From the NCBI GenBank assembly GCA_005798445.1, contig SYJG01000368.1, positions 1 through 64,000 on the forward strand: 64,000 bases of DNA, in the 5' to 3' direction. Both the position numbers and the translations under genes were made by a program. Positions 34,833-50,725 of the stretch are shown in pieces. The stretch's first letter is position 1. Each line of letters begins with the position of its first letter. The notes beneath the pieces were generated by a model. The model was given only the letters and a program-made list of their open reading frames with translations, was not told the origin of the DNA and ran no database searches. Source of the stretch: Planctomyces sp. GTDB taxonomy: Bacteria; Planctomycetota; Planctomycetia; Planctomycetales; Planctomycetaceae.

Positions 34833-35275
34833 ATGACGGACCAATCCGCTCGCTTCGTTTCGGCGAGCGCCAGGCGGCTTCAAGTGACTCGCAATGGGCG
34901 GAGCATCCTTCGCATCGCGGGTGTCCCGAAGCCTGTCGTGCTGGAAGATACGCGAGAGAAGCAACCTCTTCCGCTGTTCGCCAATCATCCGAACTGGATT
35001 GCCGGCGAGCGGCGGAAGTCATTGAAAACGGGCGACTACACCGTGGAGGAAATGGAGGCCACACTTTGCTTGGAACGCAAGAGCCTCGCGGACACCGTCG
35101 TTTGCGCGGTGACGTAGGGTGAGCGTTTCCTGGCATCATGCGCTCGGCTCGCCCGGTTCCGGTGGAAGGCCTTCCTGATCGAAGCGACTTTGAAAGACTT
35201 CAAAGGTGGCTTCGAGCCGTTCAATATCCCGTCGGGCGTGCATCCCAATGCAAGTGCTCGGTTCTCACTTTGAAA
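34833..35275 (+). pseudogene. ERCC4-type nuclease, interrupted by an in-frame TAG (35115-35117) and truncated
   Basis: VVLEDTREKQPLPLF ... LKTGDYTVEEMEATLCLERKSLADTVVCAVT*GERFLASCARLARFRWKAFLIEATLKDFKGGFEPFNIPSGVHPNA in one frame across the TAG. Confidence 0.7.
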
Positions 35276-35405
35276 AAGCGGCGTGCATTCCGGCGCGCGC
35301 TACGCCTGCAAGTGGTGTTTTTGAGACGCATCGAGTCACCGAAATTGCAAAACCCTCGGAGATCCGAGGGTTCGGATTTGGGAAGGCACGCCCAGAGGGA
35401 TTCGA
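35251..35405. repeat. Direct repeat, left copy: integrase 3' end + hairpin + tRNA-Arg 3' terminus
   Basis: ~154 bp, near-identical to 41037-41190. Confidence 0.92.
35387..35405 (-). other. tRNA-Arg 3'-end remnant (att site)
   Basis: cacgcccagagggattcga is identical to the 3' end of the intact tRNA at 41172-41245. Confidence 0.8.
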
Positions 35406-35789
35406 TTCCCCCCCATGAAACCACGGGAAAAGCCGCCTTCGGTAGTGAAAGCGGCGCGCAATCCGGCGCGCGGGATGACGCGGGCTTGATCTTAGTCGAT
35501 GACGATGCCGGCTTGGCAATGATCGTGGCGGCGTGGCCGATGCTGTCGGCAGATGCTCGGCGGGCGATGGTTGAGTTTGCGGGGCGGGAAGTTGGCTCGG
35601 TGGCTGTTCGGGCCGATGGGGGCGTTGGATCGGGATGACTCCCGCAAGGTACTGCGAGAAAAAGGGAAAGAAAGTGTGTTGAACCGCGCTGCTGTTCCCG
35701 GCAAGGGGAGTGGGAAAAACGGTTTCGGAGAACCTATCCGCGCGTCAGGTCGCCTCGTCGGTCACGAATCGCGGCCCCCTACGCCGGAC

Positions 35790-36785
35790 TCAGACCTGGA
35801 TGCCGCTCCGTTCCAGCGTTTTGCGGGCTTGCTGGGCGGCCTGCGTCTCCGAGCATTCGCTGACGATGGCCTTGAGAATCTCGACTGCCTTTCGGCGGTT
35901 GCCGGCAGCGGCAAGCTCTTTGGCGTCGGTGAGCAGTGTTTGGGCTGCGGCCTCAGTCTCTTCCGGCGATGGGTCGTAGGACTCCCGATCATCGTCTTCG
36001 ATGACCACTTCGGAGAGTTCGCTGTCGTGGATTTCTTTCGTGGGGATCTGGAACGTGTCGGGGTTGAACTTGTCCGGAGCGGAGACGGGAATCGGCCGCG
36101 GCGCGGACGGTGACGTGGGAGCGGGTGGAATCGCGCCGCCGTAGCCACCGAACCCCGTGGGCATCGGGCCGGACGCCATGACCAAGTCGCGGATGACACC
36201 CACAACCGCCATCGCGCTTTCGGCGTCGATCGGAACGCCTTCCAAGATGTTTGGCTTGAAAAGCAGCGAGATGGGCGGACCGCCTTGTGAGTGAATCTCC
36301 ACGAAGAACTTTTTGGAGATGGCGTACAGGACCACCAACGCGATGCCCACGACTAAGGTGACGGTGATCGGCCAGAACGAGCTCAGCGTCCAACTGAGCG
36401 ACAAGCCAGACACGTTGATGACCGCGGCCGAAATCAGATTGCCGATCGGCTTGTGAATTCCTGCGGCGAGATTCGAGACCTGTCGAATCGGGATCAATTG
36501 CAACCGCTGTCCGAACAAGCTGGTGGACTCGCACCGCAACTCTAAGCCGGCAAGTGTCAGCCGTGTGGTCGGGCTGAATCCCATCAGGCTGAGCACAAAG
36601 GCGATGACCCCTTGCATCCGTCCGACAATCTCGACCATCGGTGACGCGGACGGCTGCGGATGCACGCCGACGAGAAACTTTTGCAGAACCAACGTGGCCG
36701 AGCGGGTACGAAACAACCGGATGCCGAACGCTCCGATGACGAACACCCAAAACAAACTGGCCACGACGACTTCCATTGAGGACAT
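35790..36785 (-). CDS. Hypothetical membrane protein with C-terminal helical/TPR-like tail
   Basis: ORF 331 aa with TM segments; LVGVHPQPSASPMVEIVGRMQGVIAFVLSLMGF. Confidence 0.6.
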   Translation of the reverse strand: MSSMEVVVASLFWVFVIGAFGIRLFRTRSATLVLQKFLVGVHPQPSASPMVEIVGRMQGVIAFVLSLMGFSPTTRLTLAGLELRCESTSLFGQRLQLIPIRQVSNLAAGIHKPIGNLISAAVINVSGLSLSWTLSSFWPITVTLVVGIALVVLYAISKKFFVEIHSQGGPPISLLFKPNILEGVPIDAESAMAVVGVIRDLVMASGPMPTGFGGYGGAIPPAPTSPSAPRPIPVSAPDKFNPDTFQIPTKEIHDSELSEVVIEDDDRESYDPSPEETEAAAQTLLTDAKELAAAGNRRKAVEILKAIVSECSETQAAQQARKTLERSGIQV

Positions 36786-37075
36786 GACGGCTCCAAACGG
36801 TCAATCGACTCGGTGGCTTGGCTGAGACGCAACCGACACGCCCGCGTCCCCATGACAACAGTCGGCGCACGGCCTGTCAACAAAGGGGACTTCGCCTGGT
36901 TCGTTCGACGTTGTCGTTGTTGCTCGGCGATTCGCCAGTCGGCAAGATGTTGTTGCCACGGGTTGCGAACTGCTGAGTAGCTACAGCACTTCGCCGAAGC
37001 GGGCTGGGCTTGAGTTGCGGTTGCCTACCCTTCCGCCGACTCGCCCAGCCCGGCCTGTGGCCAAAGGGTAGGACG

Positions 37076-37720
37076 ATGGCAGGTCAGCACGGGAACGGCC
37101 GTGTCGCGGCATTGGCCGCGATTGAACGGCGGGCGCGGAGTTTGATCGACGGGTTCCCGGACGCGGTGCGAACGTACCGCTCGTGTTGCGACGGTCCCCG
37201 GTTTGCCTTTGATTCGATTGAAGCTCACAACCAACGTGTCTTGATCGAAGAGGCCAGTCAAAGCCTTCGGAGACTCGAAAGCGAACTCCGCAAACTCGCC
37301 GGACAGGTCATGTCAGAACTGCCCGATCTGGCCAAGACGCTGCGCCACGTCACCACAACCTCCAGCTTTCTCGACACGGACGAGAAGGTCGCCCCCGTGC
37401 TCAACGAATTGCACACGATTGAAGTGGAAGCTCACCGGCAACAGGACACTGCCGCGAGCGTGAAAACGGTGACACCCAAACTGGTTGATGAAGGCGACCG
37501 GACAATGTGGACGATCTGGGTGCTAACGAAGATCGCGCATCCCGTGTTCTCCGCGACGAAAGCAGTTGGAAAATCGCCGCAAGCGTGGACGGATTTCGCA
37601 AATGGGCTCCGGTACGAAGGGCTAATGGAAAATCATCCCGTGCGAGGACCGAAAGAAATCAAAATTCACAGGTCTGTGCTCGCCAAATTTGAAATCAAAC
37701 GCCCTGATTGGTTCGATTGA
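37076..37720 (+). CDS. Hypothetical protein
   Basis: ORF 37010..37720; likely start 37076. Confidence 0.55.
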   Translation: MAGQHGNGRVAALAAIERRARSLIDGFPDAVRTYRSCCDGPRFAFDSIEAHNQRVLIEEASQSLRRLESELRKLAGQVMSELPDLAKTLRHVTTTSSFLDTDEKVAPVLNELHTIEVEAHRQQDTAASVKTVTPKLVDEGDRTMWTIWVLTKIAHPVFSATKAVGKSPQAWTDFANGLRYEGLMENHPVRGPKEIKIHRSVLAKFEIKRPDWFD

Positions 37721-37868
37721 GCCCCCTGCGTTCTGGTTTCGTACAAGCCTGCTCAAGTCATCCCCCAGTCTGCTCACAATACGAAGACTCGCGGCTGGTA
37801 GGTGGATTCGTTTTGTTGAAGATGGCCCTGCCAAACCTTCAACGACGGATCATCGCGTTTCGCGAATG

Positions 37869-37948
37869 AAACCCTTGGTCCGAGGCTGCTCGCTTCAATG
37901 CGGGGACGCTGGTTGAAGGCGTTGGCAACAGTCTCGGACCAAGGGTTT
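37869..37948. repeat. Perfect 16-bp inverted repeat AAACCCTTGGTCCGAG ... CTCGGACCAAGGGTTT
   Basis: Arms 37869-37884 and 37933-37948, immediately upstream of the DUF1376 gene. Confidence 0.9.
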
Positions 37949-37965
37949 TTGCTTTGGGGCGTGCG

Positions 37966-38937
37966 ATGAAGCCTCCCGCATTTCAGTTCTACGCCGCCGA
38001 CTTTTTGGTCGGCACCTCGACCATGACCAACGAGGAAGTCGGAATCTATATCCGGCTGCTCTGCTACCAATGGGACAAGGGATTCGTCCCGAAGGACAAA
38101 GCATCTCGAATCGTCGGCGCGGAGATCCCGGCCGACGTGCTGAGCAAGTTCGTAGAGACCAATGGGGAACTCCGCAACCAACGACTTGAGAGCGTGCGAA
38201 GTAAGCAGACCGAATACCGCGAACAACAGTCGCTTCGCGGCAAGGCCGGTGCCGAAGCCAAGTGGCGCAGCTCTCGTGATGGCACTCGCCATCCAAGTGC
38301 CAATGCCACCGAGATGCCACCGCCATCATCCGTGGATTGTCCCAGCGATGGCTCTCCGCCTTCTGTCTTCGGTTTTCAGTCTTCGTCTCAAATCTCCGCC
38401 TCCACCTCCACAAATGGCGTGAGGGAGGCGGTGGAGGGATTGCTTTCAAAGACGGGCTACATCAAAGCTGGGAACATCGCTCAACTCGCCGTCGATCGCA
38501 GATACATGCTTGAGGAAGTCCAGCAACTCGTGAGCTACCTGGAGGCTCACCCCGAATACGGCAAAGGTGCGTTGGAATTCCGGCTCAAGAACTCACCACC
38601 TGGAACACCGATCGACAAGGGCTGGCCAGAGCCGCGAAATCGTCCACAACGGAAAAACGCTCAACGTGCCGGGACTGAGAAACTGCTGGCAGAGTTGTCG
38701 CAAGATGACATTCGGAAGGATTTGGAGTGGGCAGTTGCAATGAAGATGCTGCAACCTCGCGCACTCCACCAGTTCAACGACGACCCCGACGACTTTCTCA
38801 AGTTCCCAGCGAATCAGTCCACTCTCGCCCAAGTGATCGCGGCGCGAGATGCCGCAATCGGACAACGTGCTCCCACCGCCCAGCCACCGCCGGCTGATTC
38901 GAGCGACCGCACAGAAAACCGGACGCAACGATCGTGA
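37966..38937 (+). CDS. DUF1376 domain protein (phage/plasmid replication-initiation related)
   Basis: KPPAFQFYAADFLVGTSTMTNEEVGIYIRLLCYQWDKG. Confidence 0.82.
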   Translation: MKPPAFQFYAADFLVGTSTMTNEEVGIYIRLLCYQWDKGFVPKDKASRIVGAEIPADVLSKFVETNGELRNQRLESVRSKQTEYREQQSLRGKAGAEAKWRSSRDGTRHPSANATEMPPPSSVDCPSDGSPPSVFGFQSSSQISASTSTNGVREAVEGLLSKTGYIKAGNIAQLAVDRRYMLEEVQQLVSYLEAHPEYGKGALEFRLKNSPPGTPIDKGWPEPRNRPQRKNAQRAGTEKLLAELSQDDIRKDLEWAVAMKMLQPRALHQFNDDPDDFLKFPANQSTLAQVIAARDAAIGQRAPTAQPPPADSSDRTENRTQRS

Positions 38938-39008
38938 CTCGCCGCGCCCGGTTCTGCTGAGACTGCCACTGCAATCCCCTATCGACATCACAGCACAAGG
39001 ATTATGCC

Positions 39009-39434
39009 ATGACATCCGAAACATTGTTCCCCGATGACCCTCAACCTGACAAGGCGTTGCCGCACAACCGCACGGCCACCAGCAAGCTGGCGGCCAGATT
39101 GATGAAGCCATTCGCCGGCAAGCAAGCCGAGCGGGTTTTCGAGTTCATCAAAACCCAAGGGGACCACGGAGCAACCGACGAAGAGATTCAGACCGCTCTG
39201 AAGATGACCGGCAATTCCGAGCGGCCACGTCGTCACCGCCTGTACCTCGATGGTCGAGTCAAAGATTCCAAGAACATGCGGGCCACGGAATCGGGAACGC
39301 CCGCGAAGGTTTGGGTGGCAGTGTCTCCCGATGAGCCTGCCACCGCGAAGCCGAAAACGGACTGGCCCACGAGCGGCAGATCAAAACCGAGCCGCACCCA
39401 TTTGGACGAATCCGCACCGGACATGATTTCTTGA
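39009..39434 (+). CDS. Hypothetical protein, winged-helix-like
   Basis: RVFEFIKTQGDHGATDEEIQTALKMTGNSERPRRHRLYLDGRV. Confidence 0.6.
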   Translation: MTSETLFPDDPQPDKALPHNRTATSKLAARLMKPFAGKQAERVFEFIKTQGDHGATDEEIQTALKMTGNSERPRRHRLYLDGRVKDSKNMRATESGTPAKVWVAVSPDEPATAKPKTDWPTSGRSKPSRTHLDESAPDMIS

Positions 39435-39455
39435 TAGGTCGGGAGAACTGTCGCC

Positions 39456-39692
39456 ATGAATGCCACCACACTGTTGCCGGCCGCTCTGCGCCGGCCGGAG
39501 AAGATGGAGACGCCGCGGCTGTTGTTGTCGCGGGATGAAGCGGCGAAGGCTCTCAACGTGTCGGTGCGGCTGCTCGACACGCTCACCGAGCCGGCCGGAA
39601 CATTGAAGCCCGTCAGGATCGGGAGGCGTGTGCTCTTCTCGCCGGCTGAACTTCAACGGTGGATCGACGCTGAAGCGAAAGCGACACAGTAG
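39456..39692 (+). CDS. AlpA/excisionase-type helix-turn-helix protein
   Basis: LLSRDEAAKALNVSVRLLDTLTEPAGTLKPVRIGRRVLFSPAELQRWID. Confidence 0.8.
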   Translation: MNATTLLPAALRRPEKMETPRLLLSRDEAAKALNVSVRLLDTLTEPAGTLKPVRIGRRVLFSPAELQRWIDAEAKATQ

Positions 39693-39863
39693 GTCACGCT
39701 CCCGACGTGCCGATGATCGGAGAGACCGAATCTCCGCGCGGCACCACGTTTGATCGGGACGAACATCCGATCCTCGAATATCATCCTCGCACCTTTGCCG
39801 CCTGCGCGGTGTGCCGGACTGCAACCCGGCCCCGCGTGGGTGGCGTTGCAGAAAGGTCTCAAC

Positions 39864-41210
39864 ATGGCCAGCGTCGTTTCTGATCCGAATGGTTATCACC
39901 GCGTCGTCTTCAAAGGGCTGGATGGTGAACGCCATCCGATTCGGCTCGGCAAGTGCTCCGAGAAATTTGCGATCGCCGTTGCGGATCACGTTGAAGAGAT
40001 CATCAACCAAGCGATGATGCCGTCCCGCCCGTTGGCTCGTGCAACGGCTGAGTGGCTGTCTGTCATGCCGCCCAAGATGGAAAAGAAGCTCGTCAAGGTG
40101 GGGCTGATCCATCCGCGCGACGATGCAAACCGAGTCACCTTGGGGAAGTTTCTGGACGCCTACCTGCAACGCCGCTCGGACGTGAAACCGAACACGAAAC
40201 AATTCTTCGGCCACGTTCGGACCAATCTGATCGACGTGTTTGGAGCCGATCGACCGCTCGACAGTCTCAACGCGGGCGATGCCGATGACTTTCGCCGCGC
40301 TCTGCAACGGCAAGGTGGGGAGTCGGAGGCGAAACCGGACACCAAGACCAAGACTCGGAAGCAACAGAAACTCGCCGTCGCGACAATCGCTCGGCGTTGC
40401 AGCATGGCTCGCACGTTCTTTCGCGATGCCGTCAAACGGAAGCTGATCGACTCGAACCCGTTTGAAGACATCGGGGGCGGCCCCAAATCGAACCCAGAGC
40501 GGCAACGCTTCATCGACCAACCAACGATCGAAAAGGTGATTGCCGCGTGTCCTGACGCCGAATGGCGGCTGCTGGTGGCATTGTCTCGATACGGTGGCCT
40601 GCGAATTCCTTCCGAGGCGTGTCTGCTCCGTTGGAGCGATGTCGATTGGTCCGAAAGCCGGCTGCTGATTCACTCGCCCAAGACCGAGCATCACTCCGGC
40701 AAGGGGACACGAGCCGTCCCAATCTTCGGCGAGTTACGGTCGTACCTGGACGAACTCTTCAACGCCGTGACCAACGGATTCGAGCAACCGGTCGATCCCG
40801 ACGCCTGGATTCTCGCCGGCCTACATCGTGAAGCCGCCACGAAAGGAAACTGGAAGGCGGTCAACCTGCGAACTCGATTCGCGAAGATCATCAAGCGAGC
40901 CGGCTTGGCGACGTGGCCGCGTCTCTGGCACAACCTCCGTTCAAGCCGGCAAACCGAACTGACGGAAGTTTTCCCCGCTCACGTCGTCAGTGCGTGGCTT
41001 GGCAACAGCGAACGCATCGCCGCGCAACATTACCTGCAAGTGCTCGACTCACACTTTGAAAAAGCGGCGCGCATTCCGGCGCGCGCTACGCCTGCAAGTG
41101 ATGTTTTTGAGACGCACCGAGTCACCGAAATTGCAAAACCCTCGGAGATCCGAGGGTTCGCATTGGGAAGGCACGCCCAGAGGGATTCGAACCCCCGACC
41201 TACGGATTAG
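39864..41210 (+). CDS. Tyrosine recombinase/integrase (element 1)
   Basis: LVALSRYGGLRIPSEACLLRWSDVDW; LWHNLRSSRQTELTEVFPAHVVSAWLGNS; C-terminal reading runs antisense into the tRNA gene. Confidence 0.88.
   Translation: MASVVSDPNGYHRVVFKGLDGERHPIRLGKCSEKFAIAVADHVEEIINQAMMPSRPLARATAEWLSVMPPKMEKKLVKVGLIHPRDDANRVTLGKFLDAYLQRRSDVKPNTKQFFGHVRTNLIDVFGADRPLDSLNAGDADDFRRALQRQGGESEAKPDTKTKTRKQQKLAVATIARRCSMARTFFRDAVKRKLIDSNPFEDIGGGPKSNPERQRFIDQPTIEKVIAACPDAEWRLLVALSRYGGLRIPSEACLLRWSDVDWSESRLLIHSPKTEHHSGKGTRAVPIFGELRSYLDELFNAVTNGFEQPVDPDAWILAGLHREAATKGNWKAVNLRTRFAKIIKRAGLATWPRLWHNLRSSRQTELTEVFPAHVVSAWLGNSERIAAQHYLQVLDSHFEKAARIPARATPASDVFETHRVTEIAKPSEIRGFALGRHAQRDSNPRPTD
41037..41190. repeat. Direct repeat, right copy (integrase 3' end + hairpin + tRNA 3' end)
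   Basis: Matches 35251-35405 with a few substitutions and one indel. Confidence 0.92.
41137..41158. terminator. Perfect 22-nt palindromic hairpin AACCCTCGGA-GA-TCCGAGGGTT
   Basis: Identical hairpin at 35351-35372. Confidence 0.6.
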
Positions 41211-41245
41211 AAATCCGTTGCTCTATCCAACTGAGCTATGGGCAC
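41172..41245 (-). tRNA. tRNA-Arg (anticodon TCT)
   Basis: GTGCCCATAGCTCAGTTGGATAGAGCAACGGATTTCTAATCCGTAGGTCGGGGGTTCGAATCCCTCTGGGCGTG folds as a cloverleaf. Confidence 0.93.
41207..41243. repeat. att-like direct repeat (37 bp), left copy, within the tRNA
   Basis: TTAGAAATCCGTTGCTCTATCCAACTGAGCTATGGGC is identical to 50687-50723. Confidence 0.93.
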
Positions 41246-41282
41246 AAATGACTGTAAATTAGGTATTTATTGCGTTTCTCGG

Positions 41283-41321
41283 AACTCCCGATAAGATGCG
41301 ACTACTCCCAGAACTACTCCC
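41283..41321 (+). promoter_or_regulatory. Repeated ACTACTCCC motifs (possible integrase arm sites)
   Basis: aactccc 41283, actactccc 41301-41309, actactccc 41313-41321; the same 8-mer recurs three times at 50548-50574. Confidence 0.45.
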
Positions 41322-41347
41322 GAACGCTTGGACGGAGACCGAACGCA

Positions 41348-42523
41348 ATGCCAACCACGCGACAGACCAAAAAGGGGAAGAAACCATACGCTGACTTTCC
41401 TTTGCGACGACACGCCACCGGGCAGTGGTGCAAGAAGATTCGCCAAAAACTGCACTACTTCGGAGTCGATCCCGATGCCGCACTCCGCAAGTATTTGGAA
41501 CAACGGGACGATCTGCAAGCGGGACGGACGCCGCGAGTTCAAAGCGAAGGGCTGACCGTTCGTGAGTTGTGCAATCGGTTCCTGACGCAAAAGAAGACGA
41601 TGGTGGACAGCGGCGAACTGAGTCCCCGTACCTTCGGCGACTACTACGCCACGGGTGAGCGGCTTTGCGAGACGTTCGGCAAGACGCGGCTTGTGAGCGA
41701 CCTTGCGACAGACGACTTTGAACGGCTGCGAGCGGGCTTTGCCAAGACGCGGGGGTTGGTGGGAGTAGCCAACGCGGTTCGGAATGTGCGGATCGTCTTC
41801 AAGTACGCCTACGACGCCGGATTGATCCAACAGCCAGTTCGATTCGGCCCCGGCTTCAAGACGCCTTCCAAGTCGAAATTGCGAAAAGAACGGCAGGCCA
41901 AGCCAGTACGGATGTTTGACGCCACCGAGGTGCGCTCTCTGATCGACACCGCCGAGCAACCGCTCAAGGCGATGATCTTGCTGGCGGTCAACTGCGGGTT
42001 CGGTCAGAGCGACATTGCCAATCTGCCGAAGACGGCGATTGACCTCTCGGCCGGCTGGGTGGACTACCCCCGTCCGAAAACTGCGATCGCGCGCCGTTGC
42101 CCCTTGTGGCCGGAGACGATCAAGGCCGTGGGCGAGGCCATCGCGAAGCGACCGGCCGCGAAGCTCGAAGACGACGACGGCATGGCATTCCTGACCAAAT
42201 ACGGACAACGCTGGGTGCGAATAGGTCCGAACTCCCCGATTGATTCGGTCGGGTTGCAGTTCGGGAAGCTGGTCAAGCAACTCAAACTTGAACGCGACGG
42301 ACGTAGCTTCTATGCCTTTCGGCACACGTTCGCGACCATCGCCGGAGAATCCCGCGACCAAGTGGCCGTCAATCACGTCATGGGACACAGCGGCGGAGCG
42401 GCGGACGACATTCCCGGCCGATACCGCGAACGGATTTCCGACGAACGGCTCGTGGGTGTTGTCGAGCACGTCCGCAAGTGGTTGTTTCCGGCAAAGAAAT
42501 CAAAGCAGGAGACTGGCACATGA
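41348..42523 (+). CDS. Tyrosine recombinase/integrase (element 2)
   Basis: Core-binding domain plus SFYAFRHTFATIAGESRDQVAVNHVMGHSGG ... YRERI. Confidence 0.88.
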   Translation: MPTTRQTKKGKKPYADFPLRRHATGQWCKKIRQKLHYFGVDPDAALRKYLEQRDDLQAGRTPRVQSEGLTVRELCNRFLTQKKTMVDSGELSPRTFGDYYATGERLCETFGKTRLVSDLATDDFERLRAGFAKTRGLVGVANAVRNVRIVFKYAYDAGLIQQPVRFGPGFKTPSKSKLRKERQAKPVRMFDATEVRSLIDTAEQPLKAMILLAVNCGFGQSDIANLPKTAIDLSAGWVDYPRPKTAIARRCPLWPETIKAVGEAIAKRPAAKLEDDDGMAFLTKYGQRWVRIGPNSPIDSVGLQFGKLVKQLKLERDGRSFYAFRHTFATIAGESRDQVAVNHVMGHSGGAADDIPGRYRERISDERLVGVVEHVRKWLFPAKKSKQETGT

Positions 42524-43206
42524 ACGCAACGGATGCAAAGCGGATTCTTGATCTGTCGCGACAGTGGCAAGACACCCGCTGCTGGCTGTCGGCATTCCAT
42601 CACGCGGACCTCTGCCGCGAGTACGAGTCTAAGGGATTTGCCATCGCTAATGTCCATCCAGACTTGTCTCGACAAAAATTTGAACGAGCAACGCAAGCTC
42701 GACAATTCGTTGATGCTCGCCATGCTGAACTTTGTGAATTGGAGAACCTTCTCCGAGATCACGCGCCGAAGTTGTTCGGACTGATCCCGGTCGAAATCAA
42801 CTTCTGGAATTCGCCGCCGACAGATTTCTCGCCGTGGCTGAATGCGATGCGTCGAATCGAAGCCGAGATTCTGGTGCTTGTGCATGAATTCATTGAGAAC
42901 TCCGAAGCAGCGGAAAAGACGCCGCCAGTACCGGCAGGAACACCATCAGGTGAGGTTGTTGATGTTGCCGGAATGATCGAAAAACTATCGGTTCTGTTTG
43001 GCGACAGCGGCGGCAAGATGCTGCACGTCATCAACAACAGCGAATTGAGCGCAGACCAAAAACTGAAAGCGATGGAACGCATCGACAAGCCGTTGATGGC
43101 GAGCATTAAGTCCTCTGTGAAACTTGGCAAAGCTTTGAATGTCAGCGGTCAGGCGGTTCGCGACACGGATTGGTGGAAGGATCGCAAAAAACGGACGCAA
43201 GAATAG
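42520..43206 (+). CDS. Hypothetical protein
   Basis: ATG overlaps the integrase stop (ATGA). Confidence 0.6.
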   Translation: MNATDAKRILDLSRQWQDTRCWLSAFHHADLCREYESKGFAIANVHPDLSRQKFERATQARQFVDARHAELCELENLLRDHAPKLFGLIPVEINFWNSPPTDFSPWLNAMRRIEAEILVLVHEFIENSEAAEKTPPVPAGTPSGEVVDVAGMIEKLSVLFGDSGGKMLHVINNSELSADQKLKAMERIDKPLMASIKSSVKLGKALNVSGQAVRDTDWWKDRKKRTQE

Positions 43207-43339
43207 GCCGCAACTTGCGGCGCGGTTGCGGCTTCAACGAATTCTTTGAGCGTTTTCGTTGGGGAATTGCAGGATTTCAAAAGATTCGCTTGCGGAAATG
43301 GTTGCGGATTCATCTTCGGCTGAAAGGCCAAGGTGAAGT

Positions 43340-43525
43340 ATGTCCGAACCACAAGCGACCCCGCTGGATGCCGCCGCCGCGTGCGTGAAGATGCTATCGG
43401 CGGCCGATGCACTGCTCGACGCCGCTGATCGGCTGCGATCACGCCGCGATGAATTGCTCGCGGTAATCACTCCCGCCACGTCCGTCCCCGTCAATCGCCA
43501 ACAGCGGCAGGCGGTGACGAAGTGA
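43340..43525 (+). CDS. Hypothetical small protein
   Basis: 61 aa ORF coupled to the next gene. Confidence 0.5.
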   Translation: MSEPQATPLDAAAACVKMLSAADALLDAADRLRSRRDELLAVITPATSVPVNRQQRQAVTK

Positions 43526-43767
43526 CCACACGCTACCGCACACCGCCTGATGTCGCGGAACAGTACGGAGTCAACGCCGGCAAGGTGCTCGGCTGGATTC
43601 GCACTGGCGAACTCCGCGCCACAAACGTCGCCGCGAATCTACTCGGCCGTCCGCGCTGGCGTATCTCGCCCGCTGACCTCGCCGTTTTCGAGCAACGCCG
43701 ATCGGCGATCACGCCGCCCAAGTCACGACCGAGGCGAAAAGCCGTCGGAGTCATCGAGTTTTTCTAG
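43522..43767 (+). CDS. MerR/AlpA-like helix-turn-helix DNA-binding protein
   Basis: RTPPDVAEQYGVNAGKVLGWIRTGELRATNVA...RPRWRISPADLAVFEQRR. Confidence 0.75.
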   Translation: MTTRYRTPPDVAEQYGVNAGKVLGWIRTGELRATNVAANLLGRPRWRISPADLAVFEQRRSAITPPKSRPRRKAVGVIEFF

Positions 43768-43788
43768 CCCACCAAAAGCGACGGCACC

Positions 43789-45918
43789 GTGTCATCGGTG
43801 CCGTCAGCAAGTCCCCGTAATCAGGACGGAGCCAAGCGGATGGATTCTACAGCCGATTTATTGAGACACCATCTCGCCGAACTTCGCGCGAGTGGCCTCT
43901 CCGATGAGACCATTCTCGCGAGCGGTATTCAGTCGGAAACGAGCCACGCGGCCCTTCGGCAGATTCTCAATTGGCCAGCGATGCCGAAACGCATGGCGTC
44001 CGGCATCGTCTTCCGCTTCCGCGATTCTGTCGGCAACCTGAATGGCTACGCGCGCTTCAAACCAGACACGCCGCGAAAAGATCGAAACGGGAAGCCGATC
44101 AAGTATGAGAGTCCGCGCGGACAACCGAATCACGTCTACATCCCGCCTGGCACCGTAGCAGCACTCTCCGATTCGTCCGTCACGCTGCTGGCCACGGAAG
44201 GCGAAAAGAAATCGCTTGCCGCCGATCAAGCTGGCTTCAAATGTCTCGGACTGGTTGGCGTTTTCGGTTGGAAAGATTCCAAGCGAGAACGGTTGATCCC
44301 GGATTTGGAATTGATCGAATGGAAAGGCCGGCAAGTTCGCATCGTCTTCGATTCCGACATCACCTCGAATCTGAATGTTCTGGACGCAGAATGTCGTCTT
44401 GCCGCACAACTCACCAATCACGGCGCGATCGTCAAAGTCATTCGACTGCCTGACGGCCCCAACGGCGAGAAGCTGGGACTGGATGATTTTCTCGTCATGC
44501 ACGGCGTCGATAAATTGTGGGAACTCATCAATGTCGCAGAGCCACCGGCCGCCGTTGATTCAGGAACTGCGAAAGCTGACGCGAGCCAAATAGATTCAAT
44601 GTCCGAAGCTCGGCGCATGGTCGCAGCGACAGCGACGCACAAAGAGGGTCGAGAAGAGTTACAGCGACTTCATTCGTTCCGAGGATCATGGTGGTGGCAC
44701 ACCGGGACTCACTACCGAGAAGAAGCCGAATCCGACCTTGAAGCGAAGCTGATTCATTTTCTTGATGCGACGTTTTTCAAACTCACCAAGACCGCCGTGG
44801 CGAATGTCCTGCTGTGCCTGAAGGCCGAAACCAACGTCAACGCACATCGCGAAATGCCGACATGGCTCGATGGAACGACCGGTGGGAATTGGCTCGCGAT
44901 GAAGAATGGAATTCTCGACATTGCAGCTCTGCTCAAGGGTAGAACTGATGTGCTCGTACCGCACACGCCGCGATATTTCTCCGCCAACGTCCTGCCCTAT
45001 GACTTCGATCCGTCGGCTGAATGCCCGAAGTGGCTTTCGTTTTTGGATCGCAATCTTGAGGGGGATCAAGAACGAATCGCCCTTCTGCAAGAGTTCTCCG
45101 GCTACTGCTTGTCCCCCGGCCTCACGGCTCACAAGTTTCTGTTTCACGAGGGGGAGGGTGCCAACGGCAAGAGCGTGGCGTGTGCTGTGCTCACGGCCAT
45201 GCTCGGCACGGCCAACGTCTCATCGGTCCCTCTTGAGCAGTTCGGCGAACGCTTCGCTCTCTATCCGACGCTCGGCAAGCTGGCCAACGTCGCCAGCGAA
45301 ATCGGCGAGATCGACAAGGTAGCAGAAGGCATCCTCAAATCGTTCACGTCGGGCGACGGCATCCAGTTCGACCGGAAGCATCGTGACCCGATTACAGCGA
45401 GGCCAACAGCCAAGCTGGTGTTCGCCAGCAACAACCGGCCTCGGTTCAGCGACAAGAGCGGCGGCTTGTGGCGGCGAATGATTCTGATGCCGTGGCGCGT
45501 CGTCATCCCCGAAGCGGATCGGGTGCGCGGGATGGACTCGCCGCAGTGGTGGCAGGATCAAGGTGAACTCCCAGGCATACTACTTTGGGCGATCGCAGGA
45601 CTCTGGCAATTGGAGCAGCAAGGCGGCTTCACCAAGTCGGCAGTCTGCGAGGCGGCACTCGCCGAGTACCGCGCCGAATCAAACCCCGCGCGGCTATTTC
45701 TGGACGAGCGATTCAAGTTTGATTGTGAATCGTGGGTGATCTGCGAGGACGTCTACAAGCCGTACACCGAGTGGTCGAAATCAAACGGCTTTCTGCCGTT
45801 GTCGGCTGCGACTTTCGGCCACGAAATCCGGCGAGCGTTTCCGAAAGTCGAACGACGCTGGAAGTTGGCCAACGGCGAACGGTTCACCGCCTATTTTGGG
45901 TTGGCCAAGGTGCAATGA
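43789..45918 (+). CDS. Phage/plasmid primase-helicase: DUF3854 (Toprim-like) + D5-type SF3 ATPase
   Basis: LLATEGEKKSLAADQAGFKCLGLVGVFGW; Walker A HEGEGANGKSVACAVLTAMLG; ASNNRPRFSDKSGGLWRRM. Confidence 0.88.
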   Translation: MSSVPSASPRNQDGAKRMDSTADLLRHHLAELRASGLSDETILASGIQSETSHAALRQILNWPAMPKRMASGIVFRFRDSVGNLNGYARFKPDTPRKDRNGKPIKYESPRGQPNHVYIPPGTVAALSDSSVTLLATEGEKKSLAADQAGFKCLGLVGVFGWKDSKRERLIPDLELIEWKGRQVRIVFDSDITSNLNVLDAECRLAAQLTNHGAIVKVIRLPDGPNGEKLGLDDFLVMHGVDKLWELINVAEPPAAVDSGTAKADASQIDSMSEARRMVAATATHKEGREELQRLHSFRGSWWWHTGTHYREEAESDLEAKLIHFLDATFFKLTKTAVANVLLCLKAETNVNAHREMPTWLDGTTGGNWLAMKNGILDIAALLKGRTDVLVPHTPRYFSANVLPYDFDPSAECPKWLSFLDRNLEGDQERIALLQEFSGYCLSPGLTAHKFLFHEGEGANGKSVACAVLTAMLGTANVSSVPLEQFGERFALYPTLGKLANVASEIGEIDKVAEGILKSFTSGDGIQFDRKHRDPITARPTAKLVFASNNRPRFSDKSGGLWRRMILMPWRVVIPEADRVRGMDSPQWWQDQGELPGILLWAIAGLWQLEQQGGFTKSAVCEAALAEYRAESNPARLFLDERFKFDCESWVICEDVYKPYTEWSKSNGFLPLSAATFGHEIRRAFPKVERRWKLANGERFTAYFGLAKVQ

Positions 45919-46050
45919 GTGCAACGGTTGCAACGGTATTTCCATTGCGTACCTATCGCGGGAGAACGAAATGAGAATGAGAGAATCCGAGAGTGTGAGT
46001 ATGGCGCGCAATGCAAATGCCATTGCAACTATTGCACCCGTTGCACTTCC
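45911..46050. repeat. Cluster of TGCAACGG / CCGTTGCA / ATTGCA motifs downstream of the primase
   Basis: gtgcaacgg 45919, ttgcaacgg 45928, then attgcaact, attgcacccgttgcac at 46022-46047. Confidence 0.5.
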
Positions 46051-46237
46051 CACCCCGATAGCTGGCATCGTGTCGAGATTTGTGATCGGTCGCAGTTCGA
46101 TCCCGTCGCCCGAATCCGACGCTGAAGGTCTCGCCGAATTCTTTGAAGAGCGGGCGGCAATTCGCGAATTCGACGGCAAGCTGTCCCGCGAGGATGCGGA
46201 GATTTTTGCCCGCGAAGACGTCAGGCGAGGGGGTTGA
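45971..46237 (+). CDS. Hypothetical protein
   Basis: ORF in the coupled operon. Confidence 0.5.
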   Translation: MRMRESESVSMARNANAIATIAPVALPTPIAGIVSRFVIGRSSIPSPESDAEGLAEFFEERAAIREFDGKLSREDAEIFAREDVRRGG

Positions 46238-46322
46238 GCGGTTCCCCCGACAGCCACCTTTCCGAGTAACCACATACACCGCTGTTGAGAAATCAGTTTT
46301 TCTTTCATTAGTGACACCTGCC

Positions 46323-46661
46323 ATGACAACCTCAGAACGCGATCTGCTTTCGTTGATCCTTTCCGAGTGGGTTCGGCTGATTCAATCCGACCCAAAGCAG
46401 CAACGCGGCGAACCGTTTTACGAGTGGAAAAAGCGTGCGGCATACCTCGACGGTTTGACTCGATACGGGTTGCAGATTGACCCGAACTGGCTCGGCAAGT
46501 CGCCAGCCGGTCGGCAGGCACGAAGCCGAGCATTGATCGCGCTGGAGCGTGCGGGGTGGATTACTCGGACTCCGGGTTTCAGCCGTCCCGGTTTCGTCAA
46601 ACTGACTGACTTCGCCATCAAAGCGATTTTGGAAGCCACCGGAACGGAGCCAACAACATGA
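46323..46661 (+). CDS. Hypothetical protein
   Basis: ORF 113 aa; RQARSRALIALERAGWITRTPGFSRPGFVKL is winged-helix-like. Confidence 0.6.
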   Translation: MTTSERDLLSLILSEWVRLIQSDPKQQRGEPFYEWKKRAAYLDGLTRYGLQIDPNWLGKSPAGRQARSRALIALERAGWITRTPGFSRPGFVKLTDFAIKAILEATGTEPTT

Positions 46662-46933
46662 AGACTCGTCGCAAAACGACCAAGCAAAAACGCCCCGGCA
46701 TCCCGTGCCCGCATTGCGCGAATGCTGTGTCGAGCGTCACGCGCACCAAACAGCGCGGCGATGGACTGCAACGCATTCGCGAGTGCTCGAAGTGTCATCA
46801 GCGGTTCATCACGCGCGAGTCATCGGCAAAAAGTGACACCGGCGTCATGCAACTTGCCACCGATGTTACTTCGTTGGTGCGAGCACTCGGATTGTCCCCG
46901 AAATCTTTTCTCTCACCCGACCACACCCGCTAG
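46658..46933 (+). CDS. Stand-alone zinc-ribbon protein resembling the NrdR N-terminal domain
   Basis: CPHCANAVSSVTRTKQRGDGLQRIRECSKCHQRFITRE. Confidence 0.7.
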   Translation: MKTRRKTTKQKRPGIPCPHCANAVSSVTRTKQRGDGLQRIRECSKCHQRFITRESSAKSDTGVMQLATDVTSLVRALGLSPKSFLSPDHTR

Positions 46934-46955
46934 TTTCTCACGAAAGGAAATCACC

Positions 46956-47495
46956 ATGCACGTTTTCAGCCGCAATCCCGCCGCCGATCCCGTTGACGAT
47001 CTTGAATCGTGCGCGGAAGCCATCCGCGCCTCTGGCTGGTGGAACCGATGCGACCTGGCCGAGCAGTGGCCTCTCACGACCGAGCAAGCCGCTGAACTTC
47101 TGTCGGACGCTGGCGAATTCGACGTCGACGCGGAGTCCCTCGCCGACTTGATCGACCGCCGGCTGATCCCGTCACCTGCGAAGGACGACAACAGCCAACT
47201 CGAATGGAACGCGACGGACATCGTTTGCGCCGTTGGCTTGCTGAACAACCGCCAGCAATGGCAACCGACTCCGAGCGGCCACGACGCCTGCAAACATCCC
47301 TGCCAACTCGCACTTGAACAAGCTCGTGCCACCGATGAAGTCGATGCGATTGTCGCCGGTATGGCAGGCGTTCCCCGCTTCGATGTTCGTCACCTCTTGG
47401 AACTGCTGGTTGTGACCGACATCGGCGAAGGGCGACGCAAACTCGTCACGTTGTTGAAGTCCGTCCTAGAAGTCGATCACGGAGTCGTGATTTGA
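46956..47495 (+). CDS. Hypothetical protein
   Basis: 180 aa ORF preceded by AGGAAA; overlaps the start of the next gene. Confidence 0.6.
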   Translation: MHVFSRNPAADPVDDLESCAEAIRASGWWNRCDLAEQWPLTTEQAAELLSDAGEFDVDAESLADLIDRRLIPSPAKDDNSQLEWNATDIVCAVGLLNNRQQWQPTPSGHDACKHPCQLALEQARATDEVDAIVAGMAGVPRFDVRHLLELLVVTDIGEGRRKLVTLLKSVLEVDHGVVI

Positions 47496-49471
47496 AGCCT
47501 CTCGCACTCACCGCCGCGCTCAACCTCACGGCCGCACAAGCTGGCAAGCCGCGACGCTTCAAAATCTTGGCCTACAGCGGCGGACTGCTGGTTGTTGACG
47601 GATTCGAGCATCCTGTCGTTGTTGACCTCGCCGGCATCAAGGCCACCGCCGCAATTCCGATTTTGATTGACCATGCCGCCGACGTTGACCACACGCTCGG
47701 CCAAACGAACGCCGTCGGCAACGATGGCCGAAGTCTCGTTCTCGCGGGCAACATCACCGGTCAATCGCAGCGTGTTCGCGATGTCATCGCGCAATCCGAC
47801 GCCGGCTACTCGTGGCAGGCATCCATCGGTTGCAGCGTCGAGCAATCCGAGCGAATCCCGGCCGGTCAAACCGTTGCCGTCAACGGTCAACTCTTCGTTG
47901 GACCGATCATCGTCGCGCGGAGATCCGTGCTCCGCGAAACGAGTGTTCTGCCCGTTGGTGCGGATGCAACCACTTCAGTCAACCTCGCCGCAAAAATGAA
48001 AGCGGCAACACAAGAAGGAAAGATGACCATGCCGAATTTTGAAACTTGGTGCGTCGATCACGGCTTTGACGCCGCCGAACTTTCACCGGAAGCCTGCGCG
48101 TTTTTGCAGACTTTGTTCGACGCAGAGACCAACTCGACCGACCCGGCCGCGACGTCAGCAGCGTCAGCAGCGGCAATCCTGAATCTCCGCGCGACGCAAT
48201 CCGCCGAGCATGACCGCATTGGCAAGATCAACGCGATCGCGAGCGGCCATCCGACAATTGCTGCCACTGCAATTCGCAACGGTTGGTCGGCCATTGAAAC
48301 CGAGAACCATGTTCTGAAAGCGAGCCAACGAATGCACACGCCATCGAATTTTGTCCGAGGCAACAGCGACACCGCGACCGAAGCGCAGCACTTAACCGCC
48401 TCGCTCATGGTGAAGGCCGGCTACTCAACCGCCGCTGAGAAAATGTTCGGCGCGAACGTGATGGAACAATCCCGCCGTCTGCACGGTCAATCGCTGCCTG
48501 ACCTTTGCCGCGCTGCTCTCCAAATTGACGGACGCGAGATTCCGCAATCACGCGGCGAGATGATTCGCGCCTCACTGAGCACGGGTTCCATGCCCGTTGC
48601 GTTGGGCGACAGTGCCAACAAAATCTTGATCGAAGCGTACAAGCAAGCTCCTGCGTCCTGGCGTTCCTTCGCCGCCGTCAAACCCGCCGCGAACTTCAAA
48701 ACGCAAACCGGTATCCGCCCGACGTTCGGCGGAGACCTTTACCAATTAGCACCTGGCGGAGAGATCAAGCACGGCAACTTCACCGAGGAAACCTACGAGT
48801 GGAGCGTTGATACGTTCGCCAAGATGTTCTCGATCGACCGTCGGCAAATCATCAACGACGACGCCAGCGTTTTCAGTGACGTCATTCCCGGCTTGGCTCG
48901 CGCCGCCATGCGTTCGTTGAACTCACTGGTGAGCACGAAGCTGTTGGCCAACGCCGGCAGTTTCTTCAGTACCGGCAACAGCAACTATTTCGACGGTGCC
49001 GCCACGAACCTACAAGCGTCTTCACTCGCAACAGCGATCAAGATGCTTCGGCAAATGAAGGACGGGGAAGGCAACTTGCTCGACCTACAACCCGCCGTCT
49101 TGCTTGTGCCGCCAGAGCTGGAACAAACCGCGTTGGCATTGCTGCATTCCAGTGAAGTGCAGCGAGTGGCGACCGGTGATTTGCAACCAACCGGCAACAC
49201 GTTCAAGGACATCGCACAACTCGCTGTCGAGCCACGATTGTCCGATTCGACTTTCACCGGATACTCCACCGTCGCGTGGTATCTGTTCTCCAACGCGATG
49301 AATGCCGCCGTCATTGTCGGATTTCTGGACGGCAACGAGTCTCCCACTTTGGAGACGTTCGGTTTGGATCACGACGTCAACACGCTGGCGTTTTTGTTCC
49401 GCGTCTACTTCGATTTCGGTTGTGCCTTGGCCGATCACCGCGCTGCAATCCGCAGCAAAGGTGCAGCGTAG
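47492..49471 (+). CDS. Prohead protease / major capsid protein fusion (S78-like N-terminus, Mu gpT-like capsid C-terminus)
   Basis: ILIDHAADVDHTLGQTNAVGNDGRSLVLAGNI ... YSWQASIGCSVEQSERI ... LRETSVLPVGAD, then FAAVKPAANFKTQTGIRPTFGGDLYQLAPGGEIKHGNFTEETYEWSVDTFAKMFSIDRRQIINDD. Confidence 0.82.
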   Translation: MKPLALTAALNLTAAQAGKPRRFKILAYSGGLLVVDGFEHPVVVDLAGIKATAAIPILIDHAADVDHTLGQTNAVGNDGRSLVLAGNITGQSQRVRDVIAQSDAGYSWQASIGCSVEQSERIPAGQTVAVNGQLFVGPIIVARRSVLRETSVLPVGADATTSVNLAAKMKAATQEGKMTMPNFETWCVDHGFDAAELSPEACAFLQTLFDAETNSTDPAATSAASAAAILNLRATQSAEHDRIGKINAIASGHPTIAATAIRNGWSAIETENHVLKASQRMHTPSNFVRGNSDTATEAQHLTASLMVKAGYSTAAEKMFGANVMEQSRRLHGQSLPDLCRAALQIDGREIPQSRGEMIRASLSTGSMPVALGDSANKILIEAYKQAPASWRSFAAVKPAANFKTQTGIRPTFGGDLYQLAPGGEIKHGNFTEETYEWSVDTFAKMFSIDRRQIINDDASVFSDVIPGLARAAMRSLNSLVSTKLLANAGSFFSTGNSNYFDGAATNLQASSLATAIKMLRQMKDGEGNLLDLQPAVLLVPPELEQTALALLHSSEVQRVATGDLQPTGNTFKDIAQLAVEPRLSDSTFTGYSTVAWYLFSNAMNAAVIVGFLDGNESPTLETFGLDHDVNTLAFLFRVYFDFGCALADHRAAIRSKGAA

Positions 49472-49598
49472 TCCGTTCAAACTCCGCCGGCTTATGCTGC
49501 GAAGTTCACACCATTCTTCGCAGTAGTTCAACGGCGAGTTCGCCTCCACGCGGTTACAAGATTGGCCGCGTGGGGGCATTTTCTTTTGAGGGAATGAC

Positions 49599-49853
49599 AT
49601 GCTTCTCGTCAGACTCGCCGACGAACAATCCATCGACTTTCCGGCGACTCGGTTCGCTGATCCGCACTTGGAGTATTGCGGCGACACCGACCGAGGTTTG
49701 ATCGAAGCGGCTCTGGCCGAGATCAACGAGCGGATCAACAGAGCGGCAAGATCACTCGTCCTGTATCCGTCGCACAAAGCGTTGCAAACCAGCTTCGCCA
49801 AGCTGGTCAATCGCCGGGACGAGTTGGAGCAACGGCTCGCAACGCTGCTGTGA
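49599..49853 (+). CDS. Hypothetical small protein
   Basis: 84 aa ORF downstream of the capsid gene. Confidence 0.5.
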   Translation: MLLVRLADEQSIDFPATRFADPHLEYCGDTDRGLIEAALAEINERINRAARSLVLYPSHKALQTSFAKLVNRRDELEQRLATLL

Positions 49854-49971
49854 GCGTCTCTGCCATCGCGATTGTCTGGACGTGCTCTGAGTCAGACCGA
49901 GGCCCTCGCGTCGATCCTGGCGCAAATGGTGCGGTCGTTTTCTCTGGTGACGATCAAGAACATGCCAGTCG

Positions 49972-50451
49972 ATGCGTCTGATGCCGCAATTGCGGTATCA
50001 ACTCGCCGACCGCGACGAGGCGAAGGCGTGGATGATCAAAAACCAGCTTGGCCGACGGAACTTGATTCCGGCGATGCGCGTGAAGCTGGAGTTGGCGCTG
50101 AAGCCGCTCGTGATCGCGAAGGCGAAAGAGAAAGAGCATGAGCGGAAAACGACTTGTCCAAATTTGGACGAGTCCTCGTTTGTCTGCAAATGTGGCGAGT
50201 CCTTCAGTGCTCAAGTCTGGCACTGTCCTGTCTGTGCTCACCATTGGCCGCTGACGAAGGATGAGTGCTCCAATTGTCACGAGGGGAAGAAGCGTGGTTC
50301 CCATAAGGCTGCGAAAGTTGGATCAATAGACTCTTTGTCGGAGATTGCGAAGTCCGCTGGTGTGTCGCGTGGCACGGTCCACAAAGTCGAGAGGGTGCTC
50401 GCCAGCAGCAACGAATCCGTAAAGGCCGACATGCTGGCCGGCAGGACGTGA
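49972..50451 (+). CDS. ParB/RepB-like fragment (KNQLGRRNL family) with inserted zinc ribbon
   Basis: DEAKAWMIKNQLGRRNLIPAMRVKLELALKPLVIAKAKEKEHE + CKCGESFSAQVWHCPVCAHHWPLTKDECSNC + SIDSLSEIAKSAGVSRGTVHKVERVL. Confidence 0.6.
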   Translation: MRLMPQLRYQLADRDEAKAWMIKNQLGRRNLIPAMRVKLELALKPLVIAKAKEKEHERKTTCPNLDESSFVCKCGESFSAQVWHCPVCAHHWPLTKDECSNCHEGKKRGSHKAAKVGSIDSLSEIAKSAGVSRGTVHKVERVLASSNESVKADMLAGRT

Positions 50452-50547
50452 CTGCAACGCATCGTTGGCCGCGTCGTGGAAGTCATCTTGGATCACTTCC
50501 ATCGCCTCACGATGGCTGTAAGAGATCAAGAATCCGTTGCTCAAGCT

Positions 50548-50574
50548 GGGAGTAGCTACTCCCGCCGGGAGTAG
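50548..50574. promoter_or_regulatory. Three CTACTCCC sites: perfect palindrome GGGAGTAGCTACTCCC plus GGGAGTAG
   Basis: Same motif as at 41301-41321, at the opposite end of element 2. Confidence 0.5.
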
Positions 50575-50686
50575 TTTTCGGATGTTTTCGGTTGTTCGCC
50601 GATGACGTGGTGGAGTGCTCCAAAACACGGGCAAACGTGGGCTTTTCGCACGTTTCTTGAGACTGTTCACACACGCCCGGATTTGC

Positions 50687-50725
50687 TTAGAAATCCGTTG
50701 CTCTATCCAACTGAGCTATGGGCGC
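50687..50725 (-). other. tRNA-Arg 5'-half remnant (attR-like)
   Basis: 39 nt corresponding to the anticodon-to-5'-end of tRNA-Arg(TCT). Confidence 0.9.

Follow-up and report, generated by a model that had tools for sequence, protein, structure and literature searches.

A probable phage satellite with its own capsid gene at a tRNA-Arg of a planctomycete, and its relatives in Planctomycetota

The stretch analyzed here, the window, comprises 64,000 nucleotides of Planctomyces sp. (positions 1 to 64,000 of contig SYJG01000368.1, assembly GCA_005798445.1) and contains, at 41207-50723, a small element with a gene for a prohead protease fused to a major capsid protein (MCP). We read this element, with a probability of roughly 0.78, as a phage satellite of the phage-inducible chromosomal island (PICI) type that would supply head subunits and borrow the portal, the terminase, and the tail of a helper phage. 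We favor this reading because elements of near-constant size, bounded by attachment (att) sites, occur elsewhere in Planctomycetota, and because neither a terminase nor a portal was found in the elements scanned. We also count as precedent PmCI172, which encodes an MCP homolog and with its Mu-like helper gives small heads (PMC6092414).

The ~9.5-kb window element is enclosed by perfect 37-bp direct repeats, a pair far above chance expectation within 64 kb. The left copy is part of a tRNA-Arg(TCT) gene, from which the first-pass annotation, made from the letters of the window, had correctly derived the repeats. The att core recurs with 36/37 identity about 1 kb downstream of the MCP gene in a sister element (G114, L060:3559). 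Because the integrated tRNA-Arg copy starts with GTGCCCA, where the pre-integration copy would have started with GCGCCCA, the 5′ end of the tRNA and the region upstream appear to have been replaced by the element on integration.

Nine such att-bounded elements were found in Planctomycetota, 9,231-11,045 bp in size (mean 10,006, standard deviation 628), with flanking repeats of 37-51 bp. These are the window element (9,480 bp), L010 (9,793 bp), L012 at tRNA-Glu (9,231 bp), L044 at tRNA-Gln (9,877 bp), L045 at tRNA-His (9,576 bp), L046 at tRNA-Gln (11,045 bp), L049 at tRNA-Lys (10,119 bp), L050 at tRNA-Thr (10,976 bp), and L073 at tRNA-Val (9,959 bp), the last from another family of the class. 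Their targets are two tRNA-Gln genes and one tRNA gene each for Arg, Glu, His, Lys, Thr, and Val; the ninth is a tRNA 3′ end of unassigned type. Of the 9 elements, 5 are spread over four genomes of the order that consist of a single contig, and one more lies in the single-contig genome G488, from another family of the class. All 9 carry the MCP fusion, and their recognized replication genes are of primase-helicase types. The att site is the 5′ half of the tRNA in the window element and in that of G096 (L050:4869-4908), and the 3′ half in most other members. What other planctomycete genomes hold is therefore a conserved element rather than the scattered debris that the first-pass annotation had named as the outcome contrary to its reading. 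Relatives of the MCP occur in 47 of 170 genomes of the order, and their neighborhoods form 2 main classes: class A, ordinary prophages or phages, and class B, small elements like that of the window. Many of these loci come from contigs of metagenome-assembled genomes; the caller of open reading frames (ORFs) mislabels some minus-strand ORFs in GC-rich contigs, and such loci were kept out of statements on presence or absence.

All genes between the repeats of the window element lie on the plus strand, and 4 overlaps of 4 nt between neighboring genes were read directly (ATGA at 42520, GTGA at 43522, ATGA at 46658, and TTGA at 47492), in line with the single-strand series and frequent overlaps described at first pass. 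The features are as follows, with protein lengths in amino acids (aa).

41170-41245, minus strand: tRNA-Arg(TCT), the integration target, with the att core as its 5′ half (ARAGORN, Rfam).
41207-41243: attL, 37-bp core, the tRNA-Arg 5′ half as far as the anticodon loop (perfect direct repeat).
41348-42523, plus strand: tyrosine integrase, 391 aa (Pfam Phage_integrase 9e-11, phrog_1 7e-30).
42520-43206, plus strand: ORF, 228 aa, with a single homolog found (L009) and no Pfam or PHROG match.
43340-43525, plus strand: small ORF, 61 aa (ORF call).
43522-43767, plus strand: AlpA/excisionase-type helix-turn-helix (HTH) protein, 81 aa (HTH_17, 30.9 bits against a cut-off of 27; weak match to phrog_66, "excisionase and transcriptional regulator").
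43840-45918, plus strand: DUF3854-D5/P4-family primase-helicase, 692 aa (Pfam DUF3854 2e-18, D5_N 6e-10, DUF5906).
46082-46237, plus strand: small ORF, 51 aa, with a homolog in L012.
46323-46661, plus strand: ORF, 112 aa, with no Pfam match above cut-off.
46658-46933, plus strand: NrdR-type Zn-ribbon protein, 91 aa (PF22811, 30.9 bits against 27.2).
46956-47495, plus strand: c1, predicted MerR-like winged-helix protein, 179 aa, with a 4-nt overlap into the MCP start (alignment, AlphaFold2 model).
47492-49471, plus strand: prohead protease-MCP fusion, 659 aa (Pfam, PHROGs, NCBIfam, Foldseek).
49599-49853, plus strand: ORF, 84 aa, with a homolog after the MCP in G111 (L206) and no Pfam or PHROG family.
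49981-50451, plus strand: ORF, 156 aa, with weak Zn-ribbon and HTH similarity and a homolog after the MCP in G107 (L011).
50477-50501: conserved dyad TGGAAGTNANNNNNNNTNACTTCCA, a candidate cis site present in 4 elements of the genus.
50687-50723: attR, second copy of the 37-bp core (perfect direct repeat).

A start of the integrase at 41348 is more likely than one at the first TTG of its ORF. The primase-helicase also matches the P4-family primase model TIGR01613 (183.6 bits against a cut-off of 108.7), the AlpA-like label of the HTH protein is based on HTH_17 only, and the Ogr/Delta model PF04606 scored 16.6 bits on the Zn-ribbon protein, under its cut-off of 26.3. Profiles from Pfam, PHROGs, and NCBIfam back the names that the integrase, HTH protein, primase-helicase, Zn-ribbon protein, and capsid fusion had been given from their sequences; the "ParB-like fragment" at 49981-50451 had no ParB profile match and loses that name.

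Genes for packaging and for the rest of the virion were sought with hidden Markov models (HMMs) built from class A terminases (A4) and portals (A5), run unfiltered against every six-frame ORF of 8 bounded elements. Nothing rose above noise (best E 0.04-0.08), and in the same scan neck and decoration proteins likewise gave nothing above noise; as a positive contrast, the MCP model matched each of the 8 elements at 1e-230 or better. PHROGs and Pfam returned no terminase, portal, tail, or lysis family for any window protein, so the first-pass observation on these genes holds, and profile searches of the unassigned ORFs of the window element produced no recognizable terminase, portal, or tail gene. 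Pfam also found no Psu, Sid, or Delta-type protein. Several small ORFs without a known family might suggest an autonomous minimal phage with a terminase and portal too divergent to recognize, but the unassigned ORFs (51-228 aa) are too small for the TerL (~700 aa) or portal (~480 aa) of this family, and the six-frame searches gave no similarity; we regard an autonomous phage as very improbable.

The MCP fusion itself is readily identified. It matches Phage_capsid_4 (2e-33) and Mu gpT (9e-11) in Pfam, phrog_4523 "major head and protease protein" (8e-64), and the protease/MCP fusion model NF045541 (1e-79, yet under the curated cut-off of that model), and Foldseek returned HK97-fold shells for a model that is of low confidence. 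Across satellites and phages, the protease residues D60, H61, and S111 are invariant and E149 is nearly so. In a 50-row MCP tree, rooted at the midpoint and read without direction, 10 of 12 class B sequences and all 6 from class C, a further set of relatives described below, fall in one 18-row clade (support 99/97) without any phage MCP, and most satellite MCPs are ~35-40% identical to those of phages. The MCPs of L049 and L050 fall among phage MCPs, which points to at least one further, separate acquisition. The ratio of nonsynonymous to synonymous change (pN/pS) between the window and its relatives is 0.32 (L060) and 0.30 (L012) for the MCP and 0.28 (L012) for the primase; the MCP and replication genes are intact and under purifying selection. 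In G005, 2 satellites at different tRNAs have in common only a 3.3-kb block around the MCP with 94% DNA identity, plus one 50-bp match, and are otherwise unrelated at the DNA level. Because such unrelated satellites have this block in common, the capsid module moves between satellites and is retained as a unit.

These observations also bear on the alternative raised at first pass, a reduced or decaying prophage that has lost its packaging, portal, tail, and lysis genes. An MCP derived from tailed phages and the isolated MCP remnants at L058 and L090 would fit it, but 9 bounded elements that vary little in size and sit at different tRNAs, intact replication and integration genes, purifying selection, and an MCP clade apart from prophage MCPs do not. 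We consider a reduced prophage improbable and reject it on the conserved bounded copies, the selection, and the separate clade.

The gene directly before the MCP, c1, was found in most class B elements (alignment A1), and class C has a more divergent form of it (hhalign 94%); next to the class A MCPs of the same family, none was found. In its AlphaFold2 model, residues 42-98 are confident and match a RacA-like winged HTH (probability 0.97, template modeling score 0.72 by target length), and the core is predicted to be a MerR-like winged helix. An attractive possibility is that c1 acts as a small-terminase-like protein selecting satellite DNA for the helper's motor. As a possible small terminase like lambda Nu1, c1 was negative by hhalign against Nu1 and DUF1441 and reached only 26% probability against the helper ORF preceding terL. 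Homologs of c1 also stand alone among chromosomal genes with no MCP nearby in G163 (L202:10025-10642) and G166 (L203:3844-4461). Behind the MCP, the dyad TGGAAGTNANNNNNNNTNACTTCCA is found in 4 elements of one genus (window 50477-50501, L010:9496, L013:1249, L060:3347), in all 4 between the MCP and the right end, and chance would be expected to give none in the window. In viral contigs it had 3 matches, about the chance level. We consider it a candidate packaging site, origin, or operator.

In the mechanism that we propose, the satellite would use its own proteins both for integration and excision at tRNA-Arg (the tyrosine integrase and the AlpA-like HTH protein) and for replication (the P4-type primase-helicase). 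The trigger would be the activity of a tailed helper phage of the planctomycete terL-portal-protease/MCP-decoration type, upon which the satellite would make its own protease-processed capsid protein. This protein would build heads alone, or redirect them when mixed with helper MCP, fitted to a ~10-kb genome, with the DNA packaging motor, portal, connectors, and tails coming from the helper. We infer dependence on class A phages, small heads, and a packaging specificity for which c1 and/or the dyad are candidates.

How the capsid protein would be used separates several possibilities. In one sub-case of the satellite reading, it would co-assemble with helper MCP and only change the size or shape of the helper capsid, as does Ccm of SaPIbov5, a homolog of the helper capsid protein that occupies pentamers and forces T=4 heads (PMC8569155). 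Since no portal or decoration genes were found in the satellites scanned, a functional head would not be buildable by the satellite alone, and the MCPs of L049 and L050, nearer to those of phages, fit co-assembly better. The complete protease-MCP fusion has nevertheless been retained with a conserved protease motif, and with only ~35-40% identity to phage MCPs, those of the main clade are less likely to form mixed lattices; co-assembly is a real possibility at somewhat less than even odds. Alternatively, the capsid gene may be only cargo: a late gene that the element captured but does not need, with the element packaged as concatemers in normal helper heads. In EcCICFT073 the packaged DNA was of phage size, and phage growth did not return to normal when the capsid gene was deleted (PMC6092414); PICI capsid genes have been described as dispensable for transfer (PMC10111431). 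Against cargo stand the universal presence of the MCP in this element family, the purifying selection, and the 4-nt overlap that couples it to c1, and we hold it to be unlikely. More tentatively than the satellite reading itself, we suggest a dedicated Planctomycetota lineage of satellite capsids apart from phage capsids, in which complete ~10-kb heads of satellite-made, self-processed MCP would dock onto the portal, terminase, and tail of the helper, and which would also invade helper terL by means of a serine recombinase. Such heads on a helper portal would fall midway from Ccm-type redirection to the full capsid-forming PICIs (cf-PICIs). The satellite-only MCP clade across several families suggests a group that owns head subunits and not packaging motors, which bears on the open question of how satellites pass from redirecting the heads of a helper to making heads themselves, or the reverse.

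Several observations weigh against the satellite reading. The gene for c1 is absent from some satellites (L044, L045), no primase was recognized in L046 and L049, and a frameshifted MCP at one locus (L058) indicates that some copies decay. The AlphaFold model of the whole MCP is poor (predicted local distance difference test 64), and since the capsid gene of PICIs can be dispensable for transfer, as in EcCICFT073, the MCP need not form shells here. Helper cos or pac sequences were not found in the window element. Finally, the assembly that holds the window (G000; 553 contigs, ~90% complete) has no helper-family portal, so the helper would be external or missing from the assembly; assembly gaps may account for this.

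Candidate helpers are the class A prophages of the same order of bacteria, which carry the same MCP family plus genes without counterpart in the satellites, in the order terL, c5, portal, MCP, head decoration, c6, c10, neck, tail (PHROG matches: terL 4e-43, portal 7e-66, decoration 9e-21, neck 5e-5). The helper-family portal occurs in 39 of the 170 genomes of the order, and G157 and G005 hold a satellite and a helper-type prophage in the same single-contig genome. No convincing flanking direct repeat was found for these 2 prophages. Two DNA matches between helper and satellite were rejected as meaningful common DNA by their locations: the 117 bp in G005 lie away from the prophage terL, a good distance upstream of it in a region with an integrase, and the match in G157 lies within the MCP gene. 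A helper may therefore be resident in some genomes, though not in general, and infecting phages are equally likely. Bounded examples in single-contig genomes, 2 of which also contain a candidate helper prophage, open capsid parasitism in this phylum to testing.

A more direct connection to these phages comes from class C (L151/G534, L054, L088, L089, L053, L074, L075), whose members belong to the same satellite MCP clade and mostly carry an AAA_25-type protein and a large serine recombinase. In G534, a 34.8-kb viral contig (L151), the recombinase ORF continues in frame into terL residues 310-771, giving a single ORF with Resolvase, Recombinase, and GpA_nuclease domains; c5, the portal, and the phage's own MCP follow downstream, so that both MCP genes lie on one contig. 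In L054, terL residues 1-310 stop where the satellite starts, and the split point falls in the Walker B motif, LVVLD/DPQT. In G119 (L088, L089), a recombinase of the same kind runs into the C-terminal end of another phage gene, a ParB-like/DNA methyltransferase gene situated upstream of terL. These composites link the satellite MCP clade physically to class A-type phages, and in the terL-embedded branch the integration site of the satellite is the catalytic motif of its helper's packaging motor.

Two elements have a tape-measure-like gene after the MCP (L046:11684-14110, PHROG match 1e-48; L084:11717-13669, a sequence reading only), which would let a satellite affect tail length besides head size. 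In the window, a second element of ~5.8 kb (35249-41196) abuts the 3′ side of the same tRNA-Arg, edged by 163-bp repeats of 94% identity (35249-35411, 41035-41196) and encoding an integrase (39750-41210), an HTH_17 protein (39456-39692), and a DUF1376 protein (37966-38937). Homologs of its integrase, HTH protein, and next ORF lie beside a satellite MCP in G107 (L011).

Among known systems, the window element most closely follows the PICI layout, with an integrase and AlpA-type regulator at one end, the primase next, unidirectional genes, a specific att site, and a small size (9.5 kb) without lysis, tail, or large-terminase genes as searched. Gram-negative PICIs such as EcCICFT073 and PmCI172 have the same order of integrase, AlpA-type HTH, primase, and then an MCP late gene, are small, and lack large terminase and portal; 21 of 29 reference Gram-negative PICIs carry a capsid gene (PMC10111431). 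Kinship of the window integrase, primase, and regulators to known PICIs is at the level of profile matches only, and the element differs in its phylum, its tRNA target, c1 directly before the MCP, and the absence of a detected DUF1441 gene. A circular 10.8-kb Escherichia coli record, pZ1323HEC0475-3 (L222, NZ_CP148328.1), with int, AlpA, a primase-like gene, and a protease/MCP fusion, is probably an excised Gram-negative PICI circle; unlike the window element it has a ClpP-like protease, and its MCP is distant (~25-28% identity).

Like SaPIbov5, the window element encodes a homolog of the helper capsid protein and would use helper packaging and tails; unlike Ccm, its MCP comes with a fused protease of its own, and most MCPs of such satellites make up a distinct lineage that spans a phylum. 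The cf-PICIs resemble it in a satellite-encoded MCP and prohead protease, but by definition they also encode both terminase subunits (large and small), a portal, HNH, and head-tail connectors, and tails are all that they require of the helper (PMC10690885), whereas terminase, portal, and neck were searched for in window-type elements and not found. The "capsid-forming satellite" of the first-pass annotation therefore stands as a satellite, on the conserved bounded elements and the negative terminase and portal searches, and falls in the published cf-PICI sense, which the six-frame search of the 8 elements led us to reject. Helper-embedded PICIs (HE-PICIs), with one related integrase clade and targets that are cognates of lambda late genes (PMC10111431), resemble the sister branch of L151/G534 and L054 in being integrated inside a helper late gene. 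That branch differs in its large serine recombinase and its target, the terL Walker B codons, and the window element itself lies at tRNA-Arg and not inside a helper late gene.

P4-like satellites have in common with the window element a P4-family primase (TIGR01613), an integrase, an AlpA-like HTH, and a size of ~10 kb. In contrast to them, the window element has no recognized Sid, Psu, or Delta protein and does have an MCP, which P4 is not known to carry. Tailed prophages, such as L047 and L063 among others, contrast with it in having a terminase, portal, and tail operon. Outside the phylum, the 10.7-kb plasmid RHOAph of Rhodovastum atsumiense (L220, NZ_OW485609.1) has a MerR-like 178-aa ORF that overlaps a protease/MCP fusion by 4 nt, together with a head-tail attachment protein, a DUF3987 primase, and ParA and with no annotated terminase, and looks like a plasmid form of a capsid satellite. 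The 7.8-kb small plasmid of Synechococcus elongatus PCC 7942 (L221, NZ_CP130604.1) carries a Peptidase_S78-Phage_capsid_4 fusion next to the replication gene CyRepA. The literature searched gave no account of phage satellites in Planctomycetota. What is new relative to the known systems is the phylum, a tRNA-based family of ~10-kb elements, a largely separate satellite capsid clade with c1, and a terL-embedded branch that uses a serine recombinase.

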